DNA of 8,701 bases from Acidimicrobiaceae bacterium (GTDB taxonomy: Bacteria > Actinomycetota > Acidimicrobiia > Acidimicrobiales > MedAcidi-G1). The stretch's first letter is position 1; each line of letters starts with the position of its first letter. The stretch is from assembly GCA_003541675.1 (NCBI GenBank), contig DPMC01000252.1, positions 1 to 8,701 on the forward strand, written 5' to 3'. A program made the position numbers and the translations under genes. Under the pieces are notes generated by a model that saw only the letters and a list, made by a program, of their open reading frames with translations, was not told where the DNA came from and did no database searches. Below are positions 358 through 6,905 of this stretch, in pieces.

Positions 358-803
358 CCACTATCGAGCGGTCCCGTCTCGTCGATGCCGCACCGACCGA
401 GGTCTGGAAGGTGCTGTCCGAGTTCGAGGCCATAAGTTCGTGGGCGCCCAACGTCGAACACTCATGCTTCCTCACCGAGGGAGCATCCGATGTCGGTACA
501 ACTCGTCGTGTGCAGGTTGGTCGATCAGCTCTCATAGAGACGGTCGTTGAGTGGGAGGAGCCACACACCTTGTCGTACTCCCTCAAAGGAATCCCACCAG
601 TGATCCGCTCGGCTACCAACACCTGGCGGCTCGAACCAACCGAAGACGGAACGAAGGTGAGGCTGACCACCGACATTGATGCCGGCCCGCGACCCCCACA
701 GAAGTTGATCGCACGCATTGTCGGACGCAGGCTCGGGGCGGCATCCGACGAGATGCTCTCAGGGCTCGTAGCCCATTTGGGTCGGAGAGGGCAGCGGCCA
801 TGA
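354..803 (+). CDS. SRPBCC (START-like / polyketide cyclase-type) family protein
   Basis: This 149-residue protein has the length and pattern of a single SRPBCC helix-grip domain, a fold with a deep pocket for hydrophobic ligands. The opening strand (TTIERSRLVDAAP, 2-14) and the following helix with the family-typical PTEVWKVLSEFEAISSWAP (14-32) are the clearest marks. Alternating strands follow (ETVVEWEEPHTLSYSLKG, 62-79; TNTWRLEP and TKVRLTTDIDA, about 89-110), then a long C-terminal helix (about 114-142) that usually closes the cavity. No catalytic residues can be assigned, because the superfamily includes binding proteins, cyclases and dehydratases. It is translationally coupled on both sides: its start overlaps the dehalogenase stop, and its TGA (801-803) overlaps the sulfatase start. 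It may bind a ligand handled by those enzymes, which is inference. The last residues (GRRGQRP) are basic and probably disordered. Confidence 0.8.
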   Translation: MTTIERSRLVDAAPTEVWKVLSEFEAISSWAPNVEHSCFLTEGASDVGTTRRVQVGRSALIETVVEWEEPHTLSYSLKGIPPVIRSATNTWRLEPTEDGTKVRLTTDIDAGPRPPQKLIARIVGRRLGAASDEMLSGLVAHLGRRGQRP

Positions 804-3376
804 CCGTTCGACCCGACGTCATCGTCATCATGACCGACGAGGAACGCGCCGCCCCACCGTACGAAAACTCAGACATCGCCCGGTGGCGTGCAGAAACGCT
901 GACCGGTCGGGCCTGGTTCGACGAACACGCACTCAACTTTGGGCGCCACTACACGGGCTCGCTGGCCTGCGTTCCCAGTAGGCCGACGATCTTCACCGGG
1001 CACTACCCCGACGTTCATGGTGTGACCCAGACCGACGGCCTGGGAAAGATGGCTGACGACTCGCGCCTGCGTTGGCTGCGTGCCGGCGAGGTCCCCACGC
1101 TCGGTCACTGGTTCAGGGCCGGCGGTTACGACACTCATTACGACGGGAAGTGGCACATCTCCCACGCCGACCTGATCGACGAGAACACCGGCCAGGTTCT
1201 TGCAACCAACAACGCCGCCGGGGAGGTCGATCAGGAAGCCGTCGATGCATACCGTGCAGCCGATCCGCTCAAGCCCTTCGGCTTTTCCGGTTGGGTAGGT
1301 CCCGAACCCCATGGCGGCGCACTCGCCAACAGCGGCTTCCGGCGTGATCCGCTCATCGCAGACCGAGTAGTCGCCTGGTTGCAGGACCGTTACCGCCGGC
1401 GAGAGGAAGGAGACGCAAACGCCCTGCGTCCCTTCCTGCTCGTCGCGAGTTTCGTCAACCCCCACGACATCGTCTTGTTCCCAGCCTGGGTTCGACGCGG
1501 AATCCCGATCAAGAACCAACCAGAACTAGATCCACCCTCGATACCCGCATCGCCCACTGACGACGAAGACCTGTCCACCAAGCCAGCAGCCCAGGTCGCG
1601 TATCGGGCGACTTATCCGACGGGATATGGGCCGGCAGCAGCTATTGCGCGGGCCTACGACAAGAACGCCCAGAAATACCGCGACCTCTACTACCGGCTAC
1701 ACGCAGAGGTCGATGCCCCAATTGATCGGGTGCGTCGAGCCGTAACTGATGGAGGATCTGAACACGCGGTGATCGTGCGTACTTCTGACCACGGCGAGTT
1801 GCTGGGCGCCCATGGCGGCCTTCACCAGAAATGGTTCAACCTCTACGACGAAGCTACCCGCGTCCCATTTTCAATTGCCCGGATCGGCACCAACGCCACC
1901 ACCGGGACATTGATCCACGACGCCCCGACCTCCCACATCGACATCGTGCCCACCCTGTTGTCAGCGGCAGGTATCGACGAAGCGATGACGACCAGCGTGC
2001 TCCAAGAATCATTCACCGAGGTCCATCCGCTGCCCGGTACGAACCTCATGCCGGTCGTTGATGGCGCCGCAACTCCAAATCCCAATCGCACCGTCTACCT
2101 GATGACGCGCGACAACATGCTCGAGGGTGACTCCGGTGCCTCCGGCGTGGCCCGCGCTACCGGTCGTGCCGCAAAACCGCCTGGGATGCTACGAATCCGA
2201 GTTCCGGAACATGTGGGTTCAAACTTTGAAGGGATCGTTGCACGGGTTGACGACTCGATCAATCGTGGTGAAGGCCATCTGTGGAAGGTGGTTCGTACCT
2301 TTGACGACCCGGCTACGTGGACCAATCCGGGAGTCCGCCACCTCGCCTCAAGCGGCCTGGCTGGCGAGACGACCCGGACCATCCCACTCCCAGACCAGTG
2401 GGAGCTCTACGACATCGACGCCGACCCAACCGAAGCCGTCAACCGATGGAACGATGATTCGGCCCGGGACGTGTTCATCCACATCCGCGCCCTCCTGAAA
2501 GAGGAGCGCTTCCGAGCCGTGCCCGAGCGAAACAACCCGTGGCCCTATGCATCACGTCAGCCAACCGGGGGACCGGTGAAGAAGCGCCCACCCCCACCAG
2601 CGAGAATGCTTCGAAAGCTTGTACAGAAGATTGGCATGCACCCCGAAGATCTGAACGCAGTCGAGTTCGGGCTCGCTGGAAAGCGTGCCCTCATGGTCGC
2701 AACGAACACTGCAGTAATGGACATTGGCAAGCCCACCGGCGTCTTCGCCAGTGAGATGACCGTTCCCTACTACGCGTTCCTCGACGCGGGCATGAAGGTC
2801 GACGTGGCAAGCCCTCTAGGAGGTGTGATTCCAGTCGACCCACAGTCGCTCAAGCCGGTCATGCGAAGCGGTGACGACGACCGTTTCCTCGCCGACGACG
2901 ACTTCCGGAACCAGGTCACCAACTCGTTGGCGATCGGGCGATTGGACATGGCCGAGTACGACGTGGTGTTCCTCTCCGGAGGTTGGGGCGCAGCGTTCGA
3001 CTTCGGATTCTCAGACGGCCTAGCAGCCAAGATCACCGAGGCGAACGCGCAAGGGAAGATCATCGGGGGTGTATGCCACGGCCCGCTCGGACTCCTCAAC
3101 GCAAAGGATGTCGCCGGGGAACCGCTGGTCAAGGGCCGTCGGATTTCCGCAGTCACCGACAAGCAGGTGAGAGAACTCGGCATCCAATCCACCCCGCACC
3201 ACCCGGAGAGAGAACTACGTAGAGCCGGTGCGGTCTTCGAGAGCATCACCAGGTTCCGTGACCCGTTCGCCAACCACTGGGTGGTCGACGGCAACCTCGT
3301 CACCGGTCAGAACCAGAATGCCGGCCCAATGGTTGCAAGGGAAATGATGGAACTCCTCGCTGCCCGGGATCTGTAG
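800..3376 (+). CDS. Fusion of type I sulfatase-superfamily hydrolase and DJ-1/PfpI (Hsp31-like) domain
   Basis: This single 858-residue frame contains two enzymes. Residues 1 to about 580 are an alkaline-phosphatase-superfamily sulfatase. The exact formylglycine motif C57-V-P-S-R61 is followed by T66-G67. Early metal-ligand acids are D13-E14, with Glu where Asp is usual. GKWH is at 116-119, NPHD at 220-223, SDHGE at 329-333 with D330/H331, and K344. The Asp-His pair resembles phosphonate monoester hydrolases and choline-sulfatase-like members, so sulfate, phosphonate or phosphate esters are all possible. A proline/lysine-rich linker (about 586-605) leads to a DJ-1/PfpI domain (about 627-858). 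Its elbow GGVCHGP (756-762) holds C759-H760, with conserved E652, a likely third triad acid E803, and the typical DGNLVTGQNQNAG ending. DJ-1/Hsp31 relatives act as glyoxalases, deglycases or chaperones. There is no signal peptide, so it is probably cytoplasmic. The start follows a GGAGAGGG-like site and overlaps the previous stop. Domain calls are firm; the substrate is unknown. Confidence 0.92.
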   Translation: MTVRPDVIVIMTDEERAAPPYENSDIARWRAETLTGRAWFDEHALNFGRHYTGSLACVPSRPTIFTGHYPDVHGVTQTDGLGKMADDSRLRWLRAGEVPTLGHWFRAGGYDTHYDGKWHISHADLIDENTGQVLATNNAAGEVDQEAVDAYRAADPLKPFGFSGWVGPEPHGGALANSGFRRDPLIADRVVAWLQDRYRRREEGDANALRPFLLVASFVNPHDIVLFPAWVRRGIPIKNQPELDPPSIPASPTDDEDLSTKPAAQVAYRATYPTGYGPAAAIARAYDKNAQKYRDLYYRLHAEVDAPIDRVRRAVTDGGSEHAVIVRTSDHGELLGAHGGLHQKWFNLYDEATRVPFSIARIGTNATTGTLIHDAPTSHIDIVPTLLSAAGIDEAMTTSVLQESFTEVHPLPGTNLMPVVDGAATPNPNRTVYLMTRDNMLEGDSGASGVARATGRAAKPPGMLRIRVPEHVGSNFEGIVARVDDSINRGEGHLWKVVRTFDDPATWTNPGVRHLASSGLAGETTRTIPLPDQWELYDIDADPTEAVNRWNDDSARDVFIHIRALLKEERFRAVPERNNPWPYASRQPTGGPVKKRPPPPARMLRKLVQKIGMHPEDLNAVEFGLAGKRALMVATNTAVMDIGKPTGVFASEMTVPYYAFLDAGMKVDVASPLGGVIPVDPQSLKPVMRSGDDDRFLADDDFRNQVTNSLAIGRLDMAEYDVVFLSGGWGAAFDFGFSDGLAAKITEANAQGKIIGGVCHGPLGLLNAKDVAGEPLVKGRRISAVTDKQVRELGIQSTPHHPERELRRAGAVFESITRFRDPFANHWVVDGNLVTGQNQNAGPMVAREMMELLAARDL

Positions 3377-4255: not shown

Positions 4256-4417
4256 ATGCGCGAAGGGCTCTCACAACCACACAGCAGTGACGTATTCGGT
4301 GCAGAACTCGCCCTGGTCGCTACGCGGCGAGCCTTACACCCAGTCGCCTCAACTGGTTTGGCCGAACCGGTTCGGGATGTCCGCCTAGTCGTTGCTCCAG
4401 CCACTCATCTCTCGTAA
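4256..4417 (+). CDS. Possible small ORF, 53 residues, unknown
   Basis: An ATG at 4256 opens a 53-codon frame ending in TAA at 4415-4417. A GAGG (4247-4250) lies 5 bases before the ATG, and the frame begins only 7 bases after the preceding stop. The product starts MREGLSQPHSSDVFG and contains a hydrophobic stretch, AELALVATRRALHPVASTGL. No family is recognised. Third-position GC is about 56 percent, lower than the neighbouring genes, and the last 33 bases overlap the 3' end of the minus-strand DUF971 gene. It could be a real small gene, a decayed remnant or chance. It is the only gene-like content in 4249-4384. Confidence 0.25.
   Translation: MREGLSQPHSSDVFGAELALVATRRALHPVASTGLAEPVRDVRLVVAPATHLS
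4362..4375. repeat. 14-base perfect palindrome between convergent genes
   Basis: CCGAACCGGTTCGG is its own reverse complement. The 11 bases just before it (AACTGGTTTGG, 4351-4361) form a second, imperfect inverted pair with CCGAACCGGTT (4362-4372; 9 of 11 positions). As RNA this could fold into short stems, but there is no T-tract on either side. It sits between the DUF1330-like gene and the convergent DUF971 gene, 9 bases from the latter's stop, inside the possible small ORF. It could be an operator-like site or part of a factor-dependent or bidirectional terminator; neither is proven. Confidence 0.4.
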
Positions 4418-4699
4418 CAACTCGAAGGTGTAGATACCCGTGCTGTGATCATCGTTCCACGTGATGTTCAATCCCCATGCGCCATGGAGTGCAGCATCCT
4501 TAATCTGTAGCCGAGCTGGGTTGCCATGACGGGGCCAGGCTGCCTCTCCACGTTCCCTTAGTGAACGACAGGCCGCACAAGGGCAAAGCAGGCGAAGTCG
4601 CATTAAATCGAGTTCCGCAACGTACCCGTCAGCGAACGTGGCAGTCACCCCACGACTTCGTTCGACGACAACATCAACGACGTCGTCACAGTCCTCCAC
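4385..4699 (-). CDS. DUF971 / GBBH-like N-terminal domain protein with zinc-type Cys motif
   Basis: This 104-residue protein matches the stand-alone DUF971 domain, related to the N-terminal domain of gamma-butyrobetaine hydroxylase. The family features are in order: a strand pair with FADGYVAEL (22-30), LRLLCPCAACRSLRE (35-49), a strand around ARLQIKDAALHGAWGLNITW (62-81), and the signature WNDDHSTGIYTFELLREM (81-98). C39, C41 and C44 form C-x-C-x2-C and H85 lies in the W-x-D-x-H segment, matching the zinc ligand arrangement known in human GBBH (Cys38, Cys40, Cys43, His82). No dioxygenase domain follows, so it is probably a small binding or accessory protein, sometimes linked to iron-sulfur assembly. 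The start is GTG, with an in-frame TAG immediately upstream, so the frame cannot extend further. The ribosome site is poor (AAGG about 12 bases away), and an internal GTG at codon 18 is an alternative. Confidence 0.8.
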   Translation of the reverse strand: MEDCDDVVDVVVERSRGVTATFADGYVAELDLMRLRLLCPCAACRSLRERGEAAWPRHGNPARLQIKDAALHGAWGLNITWNDDHSTGIYTFELLREMSGWSND

Positions 4700-4732
4700 C
4701 TAGACATCATGCCTTGGCACCGGACCCGACTC

Positions 4733-4750
4733 GTCAGGCCACCACCTGAC
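4733..4750. repeat. Inverted repeat in divergent intergenic region (candidate operator)
   Basis: GTCAGG (4733-4738) and CCTGAC (4745-4750) are exact inverse complements separated by 6 bases (CCACCA). An outer, imperfect pair, GCCTTGGC (4711-4718) and GGCAAGGC (4755-4762), flanks it asymmetrically with 7 of 8 pairing. It lies in the only divergent gap of the window, between the DUF971 gene (minus) and the plus-strand run that contains the amine oxidase. That is a natural place for a regulator site. No clear -10/-35 boxes could be picked out, so an operator role is inference. Confidence 0.35.
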
Positions 4751-4794
4751 AGTAGGCAAGGCCCTCCACAAGACATCCGCACAATGGTGTCGAA

Positions 4795-4875
4795 ATGGAG
4801 TCAAAACTGGAGTTCAACGTGTGGCATGCCGAACCGAACGAGGAATACGTGCCCAACATTCCAAAAGTTCAATGA
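4795..4875 (+). CDS. Possible 26-residue ORF coupled to the next gene
   Basis: ATG at 4795 opens a 26-codon frame with product MESKLEFNVWHAEP followed by NEEYVPNIPKVQ, ending in TGA at 4873-4875. Its stop overlaps an ATG of the next gene as ATGA (4872-4875). Third-position GC here is about 62 percent, while the competing frame through 4821-4871 is only about one third GC at third positions. This frame is therefore the more coding-like one. No Shine-Dalgarno is visible. It could be a coupled leader peptide or the true N-terminus of the next protein joined by a frameshift. No homologue is recognised. Confidence 0.3.
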   Translation: MESKLEFNVWHAEPNEEYVPNIPKVQ

Positions 4876-5498
4876 TGACCAACGTGTCCGGCGGTAGCGA
4901 CGGGCGTTCCGTTGTCAAGGGGACCATCTCGTCAGCGGCATTTGCTAGCGGAGACCAGTTCGTCATCGGTTACTGGCCACAGTCTCCGCTTGGACCCTTT
5001 CACGACATCATGTGGCTCGACGCAAACGACACCAGAACCTTGATCGCCTCCTCACGAGATGCAGCCAACTTCATCACGAGTACCTATCACTTTGATCACG
5101 TCATGGTCGCGTCGCTTCATGTCGAGAGCGAGGGTGCAACCACGACGGCTTGGACAGACAAACTTGCGATACAGATGAACGGAGGCTGGCTACGCCCCCT
5201 TCCGCCCCGGCGCCCACTCACCGTGACCCGCTACATCGAAGCACCCATCGCAAGATGGCTAATGGGTGTTGAAACCTACGGGTTGAGCCCGACCGGTGCC
5301 CGCGAGTGGTATCAAGCTCGCGGGTGGCGGTGGGTAAAGACCGCCACTGCCCGACACGGAAACGAGGACCTTGGGGAACTGGTTGAGGTCACCCGACCCA
5401 TGAACGTCGGATTCTCCAACCCACCGAGGCGAGCTTCGATCGTCTCCGTCACTGTCACGATCGAACAACCCATCGCCGGCAGCGAGCCTGGGACCTGA
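4872..5498 (+). CDS. Conserved-looking protein of unknown function
   Basis: This 208-residue protein (from ATG 4872) is not assigned to a named family. It has no signal peptide, no membrane helix and no nucleotide-binding motif. Tryptophan- and proline-rich segments look conserved: VIGYWPQSPLGPFHDIMWLD (31-50), TYHFDHVMVASLHVES (71-86), TRYIEAPIARWLMGVETYG (119-137), LSPTGAREWYQARGWRWV (138-155), and a C-terminal MNVGFSNPPRRASIVSV (177-193). It loosely resembles hypothetical proteins of high-GC actinobacteria, from memory only. The start is uncertain. GTG at 4821, with GGAG 8 bases upstream, would add 17 residues, but that stretch has AT-rich third positions. ATG 4872 or 4875 has no Shine-Dalgarno but overlaps the stop of the upstream small ORF. 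It lies 18 bases before the amine oxidase, so co-transcription is likely. No function is proposed. Confidence 0.75.
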   Translation: MMTNVSGGSDGRSVVKGTISSAAFASGDQFVIGYWPQSPLGPFHDIMWLDANDTRTLIASSRDAANFITSTYHFDHVMVASLHVESEGATTTAWTDKLAIQMNGGWLRPLPPRRPLTVTRYIEAPIARWLMGVETYGLSPTGAREWYQARGWRWVKTATARHGNEDLGELVEVTRPMNVGFSNPPRRASIVSVTVTIEQPIAGSEPGT

Positions 5499-5516: not shown

Positions 5517-6905
5517 ATGTCGAACACCAACGTCCCCTACTCCCTGCTACGTAGTCGTCGCGAGGTGCTAGCCGGACTGTCGTCGTTGGCTCTGGCAACC
5601 ACGCTGAGCTGTGGACGCGGTGACCGCACCACGACTTCACCTCTCACCACAACCTCAAATCTCCCAGCGTTATTCGACCATCGGATCACTCGCTGGGGTC
5701 AGGACCCCTGGTCGCGAGGTTCGTATTCGTACCTGGGCCCGGGAGCATCGTCAGCTACCCGTCGGATGCTCGCCCGACCAATCGACCACCGTCTGTTCTT
5801 CGCCGGAGAGGCAACCGACACCGAGCACCCGGCAACCGTCCACGGTGCTCTCGCCTCAGGACAGCGGGCGGCTATCGAAATCCAAGAAGCCAGTAAGCCA
5901 GGTCTCATCGTGGTGATCGGTGCGGGTGTCGCCGGATTGGGAGCAGCACGTGATTTGACCGCCGCTGGCCGCGAGGTGGTAGTGGTCGAGTCACGCCAAC
6001 GCATCGGTGGTCGTGTCTGGTCGGACACCGTGGGCGGTGCCCCAGTGGACCTAGGCGGCTCATGGCTACACGGCTTGCGAGACAACCCGCTGACCGATCT
6101 AGCGGCCTCGCTGGGCATCGACCTGGTCCACACCGACTACGAAGACGCAGTGCTGTTCGATGCCGACGGCAAGTTGGTGAACTGGTCCGACCTGAACCAC
6201 CTGTACGACCTGGTTGAAGACATGCTGTCATCTAGTCGGTCCACGAAATCGATGGAGACAGCCGTGGACGAGTTACGCAGTCAGGTTGAGGGCGAAGACC
6301 GAAGGTATCTGGAGTACGTGCTGGCCTCCGAGATCGACCACTGGTTCGCGGCGGGACCCGAGGACCTCGCCTTCTCCGGAGTTCACGAAGGTGGGTGGTC
6401 ACGAGGCGGTGACGCCGTTCCCGCTACCTCCTACCGGCCGATCATTGAGCACCTGGCGACCGGCCTCGACATCCGCCTAGGCCATCCGGTTTCTGAAGTC
6501 ATTCGGACCGAAAACGGAATCCGGATTGCCACGGAGGAGACCGAGTTCCACGGAGGGGCCGTCGTCATAACGGTCCCACTGGGAGTTCTCCAGGCCGGGT
6601 CCATCCGGTTTGACCCCGCCCTCCCAGCGGTTAAGTCGACAGCCATCCAAACCCTCGGTATGGGAACCATGGACAAGGTGGTTCTCCACTTCGACGAGCC
6701 GTTCTGGAATCCCGACGTAGACCTGATCGCCTACGCCTCATCCGAACCTGGTCGGTTCATCGAGTGGTACAACGCAGTTCCGTGGACCGGCCACCCGATC
6801 CTGGTCGGGTTCAACGCCGGCCGACCGGCAGCAGAGGTTGAGTCCTGGAGTGACGAACGGATCTTGACCGCCTCCTTGGACGTTCTAGGTCGTCTCCGCT
6901 GGTGA
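5517..6905 (+). CDS. Tat-signal flavin amine oxidase with circularly permuted domain order
   Basis: This 462-residue FAD-dependent amine oxidase resembles the polyamine oxidase/LSD1 group, which oxidises amines to imines and releases H2O2. Residues 1-32 are a Tat signal (S13-R-R-E-V-L-A-G, a hydrophobic run, then TLSC with C32 as a weak lipobox), so it is probably exported, perhaps lipid-anchored. A Ser/Thr-rich linker (38-48) follows. Residues 57-122 (ITRWGQDPWSRGSYSY, LFFAGEAT at 93-100, HPATVHGALASGQRAA at 104-119) are the block that normally ends the family. Only then comes the Rossmann start VVIGAGVAGLGAARDL (132-147), R162-x3-R166, LGGSWLHG (179-186), VPLGVLQ (353-359), and K387 with the FDEPFW motif (LSD1 Lys661 position). 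The chain stops after SWSDERILTASLDVLGRLRW (443-462), exactly where the displaced block is expected. No part seems missing. The start follows GGAGG (5503-5507) by 9 bases. Confidence 0.9.
   Translation: MSNTNVPYSLLRSRREVLAGLSSLALATTLSCGRGDRTTTSPLTTTSNLPALFDHRITRWGQDPWSRGSYSYLGPGASSATRRMLARPIDHRLFFAGEATDTEHPATVHGALASGQRAAIEIQEASKPGLIVVIGAGVAGLGAARDLTAAGREVVVVESRQRIGGRVWSDTVGGAPVDLGGSWLHGLRDNPLTDLAASLGIDLVHTDYEDAVLFDADGKLVNWSDLNHLYDLVEDMLSSSRSTKSMETAVDELRSQVEGEDRRYLEYVLASEIDHWFAAGPEDLAFSGVHEGGWSRGGDAVPATSYRPIIEHLATGLDIRLGHPVSEVIRTENGIRIATEETEFHGGAVVITVPLGVLQAGSIRFDPALPAVKSTAIQTLGMGTMDKVVLHFDEPFWNPDVDLIAYASSEPGRFIEWYNAVPWTGHPILVGFNAGRPAAEVESWSDERILTASLDVLGRLRW

Follow-up and report, generated by a model that had tools for sequence, protein, structure and literature searches.

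Several flavin amine oxidases, among them MAO, LSD1 and the polyamine oxidases, are widely used as drug targets and biocatalysts. LSD1 and LSD2 act on histone substrates and carry an additional SWIRM domain, and LSD1 also has a tower domain. The amine oxidase domains of LSD1 (KDM1A) and LSD2 (KDM1B) are, by sequence and by fold, the best solved relatives of the protein described here, which is encoded by gene 5517-6905 of the window (the whole stretch of 8,701 nucleotides that was analyzed). By alignment, they share its motifs, its lysine and its aromatic residues, but they keep the canonical order of parts. The polyamine oxidases (maize PAO, 1b37; murine N1-acetylpolyamine oxidase, 5lae) are eukaryotic and canonical in order, again unlike this protein.

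The protein belongs to the PF01593 superfamily by profile score, matching the Pfam profile in two stretches at 220.7 bits against a gathering score of 19.8, far above chance. The larger stretch pairs residues 138-460 with positions 1-364 of the 443 in the profile. The dinucleotide glycines, the lysine, FAGE..T and the aromatic pair, residues conserved in the superfamily for FAD and the active site, are all present. The canonical order seen in solved PF01593 members is not. That order is not needed for homology, so we file the gene as a permuted variant by homology and not as a canonical member. The parts (Table 1) can be followed through their motifs, which in the block are RWGQDPW (59-65), RGSYSY (67-72), FAGEAT (95-100) and ATVHGA (106-111); the Rossmann motif GAGVAG (135-140) comes only after the linker. 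The chain ends in the helix SDERILTASLDVLGRLRW (445-462), which is the one preceding the block in canonical enzymes. Signal, block and core make up all 462 residues. An earlier note made from the sequence alone had the reading frame, its coordinates and the motif positions right when we rechecked them, as well as the join of about eight residues and the terminal helix as the one before the displaced block in LSD1. It had put the block at residues 57-122; the end stands, but the match to the canonical profile begins earlier, at residue 53.

Table 1. Parts of the permuted gene in window coordinates.
Feature	Position	Strand	Description	Basis
Whole gene	5517..6905	+	462-aa circularly permuted flavin amine oxidase with Tat-type signal; stop included	ORF, PF01593, rotation test
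Residues 1-48	5517..5660	+	Predicted Tat signal (RR 14-15) with Cys32, then a tether rich in Thr/Ser; evolves fast	
Residues 49-122	5661..5882	+	Displaced block; homologue of the canonical C-terminal FAD/active-site segment (W60, Y70, E98)	
Residues 123-130, QEASKPGL	5883..5906	+	Junction of old C-terminus to old N-terminus	Position
Residues 131-462	5907..6902	+	Core: GAGVAG dinucleotide fold, substrate domain, lysine K387	

The relationship to canonical enzymes was measured on a profile of 420 positions built from 51 relatives in canonical order. On it, the native protein falls into two pieces, residues 53-122 on profile positions 350-419 and residues 131-458 on positions 2-339, and the roughly 10 positions left unmatched form a loop. 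These complementary pieces merge on rotation, so there has been almost no loss or duplication, in keeping with the earlier claim that neither shows obviously at the two ends. The best single match rises from 358.6 bits in the native order to 468.1 bits in the rotated order. A chain start anywhere in residues 121-132 gives one match of 465-468 bits, at its fullest covering positions 2-419; over all rotations of the protein, the minimum is 222 bits and the median is 330. Rotation is a gain in 66 of 66 permuted sequences, by a mean of 97 bits and by as little as 0.3 bits in L017, a sequence truncated where its contig stops. When the canonical controls are permuted in silico, 51 of 51 lose at least 111 bits. 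Counts out of 66 and 51 refer to rows left after thinning at 75% identity, which took 169 tree rows to 117 (66 permuted and 51 canonical). Open reading frames below 150 bits or with no block match were left out of the rows, as were L001, L086, L092, L095, L011 and L056 for being duplicate, cut or interrupted. Between block and core, the 66 permuted relatives have 4-15 residues (5-8 for 55 of these), and their chains run on for 0-8 residues past the core; C-terminus and junction are nearly constant. A leftover duplicate, with the block at both ends, is found in 0 of 219 classified open reading frames. The protein has two sequence marks of a natural permutant, namely two complementary homologous segments in swapped order and a short linker that joins the old termini with no duplicate.

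A swapped order in a single genome could come from fragments of a normal amine oxidase misjoined in the MAG, and the assembly holding the window, with 306 contigs and 66% completeness, is of a kind to invite that suspicion. The same order, however, recurs in 98 of the 121 proteins classified and in 38 of the 80 named loci, on contigs of up to 1.1 Mb, and seven genomes of the genus, the window's own included, carry the gene in one uninterrupted frame to its end. With so many independent relatives of the same order, misassembly is as good as ruled out. The 121 proteins are the query and the best 120 of 3096 matches, from 7998 candidates scored; besides the permuted ones there are 21 canonical and 2 with no recognisable block. 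The named loci come from a scan of species genomes that found 566 relatives, and the remainder are 41 canonical and one unclassified (L012, cut at a contig end). Because permuted queries were used and both sets hold the best matches to them, the fractions do not measure prevalence among amine oxidases. By label, the 38 permuted loci are from Actinomycetota (20), Pseudomonadota (13, all Alphaproteobacteria), Cyanobacteriota (2) and Verrucomicrobiota (1), with 2 unplaced; the cyanobacterial and verrucomicrobial labels rest on MAGs and may reflect misbinning. Among the permuted records that have strain titles and no MAG mark are Nitratireductor sp. XY-223, Tropicibacter sp. Alg240-R139, Cochlodiniinecator piscidefendens M26A2M, Nioella sp. 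MMSF_3534, Cryobacterium sp. Y11 and Actinobacteria bacterium IMCC26207. At least 20 of 395 genomes in the window's class, its own among them, give a single match that starts at profile position 58 or lower and reaches 450 or higher. The permuted gene is in 10 of the 16 genomes of the genus and in 15 of the 41 in the whole relatives set; the other six of the genus, several of them incomplete, give no match at E 1e-40. The homologues of the same order that the note had proposed to look for therefore exist, and the permuted order is a large family, not a single case.

Some variation within the family was also seen. A shorter permuted type, mostly alphaproteobacterial (L034, L039, P0078 and P0105), has a core of about 295 residues vs. 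about 330 and is without some helices of the substrate domain. Genome G227 appears to carry matches of both kinds on contigs C12 and C2, one permuted (profile 42-200, then 249-449) and one in canonical order (118-452, then 39-117). Some permuted copies look interrupted or decayed: L092 (G194:C42) has one stop, G403:C29 lies in two frames, and G211:C12 is partial, with stops.

The displaced block is under constraint. Against the close relatives L098 and L099, the dN/dS values of the window gene are 0.006/0.128 and 0.032/0.562 in the block, a ratio of about 0.05, and 0.034/0.172 and 0.041/0.307 in the core; L003 gives figures identical to those of L099. In residues 1-48, dN is above that of both block and core. 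Across 59 aligned permuted proteins, W60, D63, G68, Y70, S71, G97, E98, the dinucleotide glycines and W183 are invariant. W60 and Y70 align with the RW and GSY of LSD1 and are presumably the counterparts of its aromatic cage. K387 falls inside a stretch matching LSD1, and we take it to be the lysine serving flavin chemistry. The complementary pieces, the same order in many separate assemblies and the constraint on the block together support a true permutation over a random fusion, as had been argued from the sequence. By its order, complementarity, short junction and homology of both parts, gene 5517-6905 is circularly permuted.

Structure prediction gave a confident AlphaFold2 model (pLDDT 90.1, pTM 0.87). 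Judged by this confidence, the model gives no sign of the refuting structure named in the note, one whose N-terminal block could not complete the FAD site. In it, the block is predicted at pLDDT of about 91-98 from residue 51 onward, residues 1-46 are mostly below 50, and a predicted helix spans 108-125, across the end of the block into the junction. The best sequence matches in the PDB are LSD1 and LSD2. Three LSD1 alignments give the stretches in swapped order, with residues 49-122 aligned to the last part of LSD1. When overlaid on LSD1, the permuted model stops at 736, and a canonical control reaches 828. LSD1 has extra sequence outside the overlay; 330 residues of the permuted model span its residues 278-736, so the LSD1 insert is absent from the permuted protein. 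Nor does the protein have a Pfam match to SWIRM at E 0.001. A solved structure in permuted order was also looked for: among the best 60 of 231 matched PDB sequences, none has a best stretch passing from block into core, and every best stretch begins at profile position 117 or later.

We asked how often the order changed. A free quick tree of the 117 rows has three changes of order, at least two of them forced by well-supported branches, with L017 among the canonical rows and the canonical L064, L081 and P0072 among the permuted ones. Taken at face value, this would mean independent, repeated origins. Holding all 66 permuted rows together, however, improves the likelihood by 26.4 over the free search (p-AU 0.741). 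A core-only tree, with the block left out and a simpler model, has two changes of order, and the same constraint improves it by 57.4 (p-AU 0.878). The near constancy of junction and termini argues in the same direction, and we regard repeated origins as distinctly improbable. One permuted clade is not rejected, and a reversal of order in L064, L081 and P0072 is conceivable. A single origin is thus favoured by the sequence comparison, though not proven.

The route is a separate matter, since the same order could be reached by fusion, with a block from a second amine oxidase gene set before a core that lacked its tail. The canonical rows nearest to the block differ from those nearest to the core, and 74 residues are too short for the block to be traced. 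The pieces complement each other cleanly, with hardly any loss or overlap, which goes against a fusion, as does the correlation among canonical rows between similarity to the permuted core and similarity to the block (Spearman 0.52). We think a fusion unlikely, and its end product would be a circular permutant either way. The 74-residue block cannot tell duplication with loss apart from a fusion of two genes, and the intermediate of the duplication route, with a double block, is found in 0 of 219 classified open reading frames. The preferred reading is one permutation event in an exported ancestor, probably through a partial duplication and a loss in which the signal stayed where it was, followed by spread. 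The RR motif is found in both permuted and canonical rows, so the ancestor was probably already exported and the tail was moved beneath the signal.

The N-terminus itself has the twin-arginine motif SRREVLAG (13-20) followed by a hydrophobic stretch, the pattern of a Tat substrate, and then a Thr/Ser-rich linker. The RR motif is carried by 61 of the 66 permuted relatives and by 44 of the 51 canonical ones, which supports, at the level of the motif, the Tat export proposed earlier. In the 59 aligned permuted proteins, RR is kept in 57 and Cys32 in 55. The window protein has TLSC at Cys32, which we take not to be a strict lipobox consensus; 43 of the 66 permuted rows and 17 of the 51 canonical ones have a loose lipobox pattern. 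The conservation of Cys32 suggests a lipid anchor in many of the permuted relatives.

We propose the following mechanism. The C-terminal helix of a canonical enzyme would lie close to its first Rossmann strand, so that a junction of 4-15 residues could join them, and the chain could be cut in the loop preceding the RW strand. The block, behind the predicted Tat signal, would then dock onto the Rossmann core and remake the normal FAD site, the block contributing W60/Y70, the aromatic pair, along with the FAGEAT/ATVHGA segment, and the core contributing the dinucleotide fold and K387. A hydride would pass from the C-N bond to FAD, leaving an imine, and the flavin would most likely be reoxidized by O2. 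We hold it highly probable that the protein is a permuted flavin amine oxidase whose block is predicted to rebuild the FAD site and which likely oxidizes amines outside the cytoplasm.

The likely acceptor is O2. A cytochrome c candidate (a small CxxCH protein with a hydrophobic stretch) is absent within 2.5 kb at 53 of 54 permuted open reading frames, 29 of which had the full 2.5 kb on both sides; the lone candidate is at locus L014. According to PMC12224317, most of the Tat-signal members tested there react fast with O2 when no cytochrome c is encoded close by; one is an exception. It is on these two grounds that O2 is proposed, and a cytochrome c partner as a constant feature is rejected on the count over the 54 frames, 29 of them with full flanks. 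A kept fold with the amine oxidase role lost, to another substrate class or to a dehydrogenase with another acceptor, is rather unlikely. It would suit position 387, which is K in 51 and R in 8 of the 59 permuted proteins, the cytochrome c dehydrogenases described among Tat-exported relatives in PMC12224317, and neighbour genes with no constant substrate clue. The invariance of W60, Y70 and E98, the near absence of cytochrome c candidates and the amine-type neighbours at L039 and L040 speak for a retained role. At L039 (Tropicibacter), the gene has a polar-amino-acid-type ABC permease on one side and, on the other, two glutamine-synthetase-like genes together with a glutamine amidotransferase. 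These surroundings resemble gamma-glutamyl amine catabolism, with the synthetase and amidotransferase genes falling below every NCBIfam cut-off shown. A glutamine-synthetase-like gene is also present at L040 and at the canonical L060. If amines are the substrates, our guess is polyamines first.

Neighbours vary at the other loci inspected, with no constant substrate clue, and a conserved neighbourhood was rejected as a guide because, among the loci searched, the window's synteny is common only to the nearest relatives. In the window, the permuted gene is flanked by an enoyl-CoA hydratase and an unknown gene. The frame directly upstream (4821-5498, +) encodes 225 aa with no Pfam or NCBIfam match; L003 and L087 have it in the same upstream place, with products 89-93% identical, along with a gene for a GBBH-like N domain (4385-4699). 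Further upstream, an 858-aa protein (800-3376, +) combines a sulfatase (PF00884, residues 5-392) with DJ-1/PfpI (PF01965, 650-851) in an unusual-looking fusion. At L010, a frame just upstream of the permuted gene (4320-4808, +) has a weak match to MauE of methylamine utilisation (29.1 vs. a cut-off of 27).

The permuted order is a rewiring of the family to which MAO, LSD1 and the polyamine oxidases belong. Provided that activity is intact, it shows a cut point and a junction tolerated by evolution, explains the two partial matches seen in profile annotation and would be a natural test of how freely flavin amine oxidases can be re-cut. The large natural set of permuted and canonical proteins, both with Tat-type signals, would then allow chain order to be set against folding and cofactor loading before export.

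A further comparison is with the canonical Tat relatives of Chloroflexota, Cyanobacteriota and others (such as P0081 and P0097). They have at most 53.5% identity to the permuted proteins over core and block, and they differ in keeping the block at the C-terminus. NicA2, Pnao and their kin, Tat-exported flavin amine oxidoreductases of bacteria likened here by their description in PMC12224317, share the superfamily and the Tat signal; the members cited there use cytochrome c, unlike the O2 proposed for the permuted proteins, and the word stem "permut" is absent from the text of that paper that was searched. Natural permutations are on record in other flavin proteins: in the proline dehydrogenase barrel of PutA (PMC3779223) and the multi-FMN-bind proteins (PMC11334425), both of which concern different domains, and in a flavin-binding domain (Murzin 1998, as cited in PMC2395249). 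PMC4432964 counts 54 circular permutations among its set-aside cases. No permuted amine oxidase was found in the library of 5.39 million papers searched, which lay outside most subscription papers and bioRxiv, and within that scope the earlier statement of knowing no described permutation in this family agrees. We consider it probable that this unrecognised bacterial family, descended from one permutation beneath an intact Tat signal and spread over Actinomycetota and Alphaproteobacteria (and MAG labels in two more phyla), is the first case in nature of a circularly permuted LSD1/MAO/PAO fold. Permutation in other flavin proteins and the amine oxidase superfamily were both already known; their combination appears to be new.
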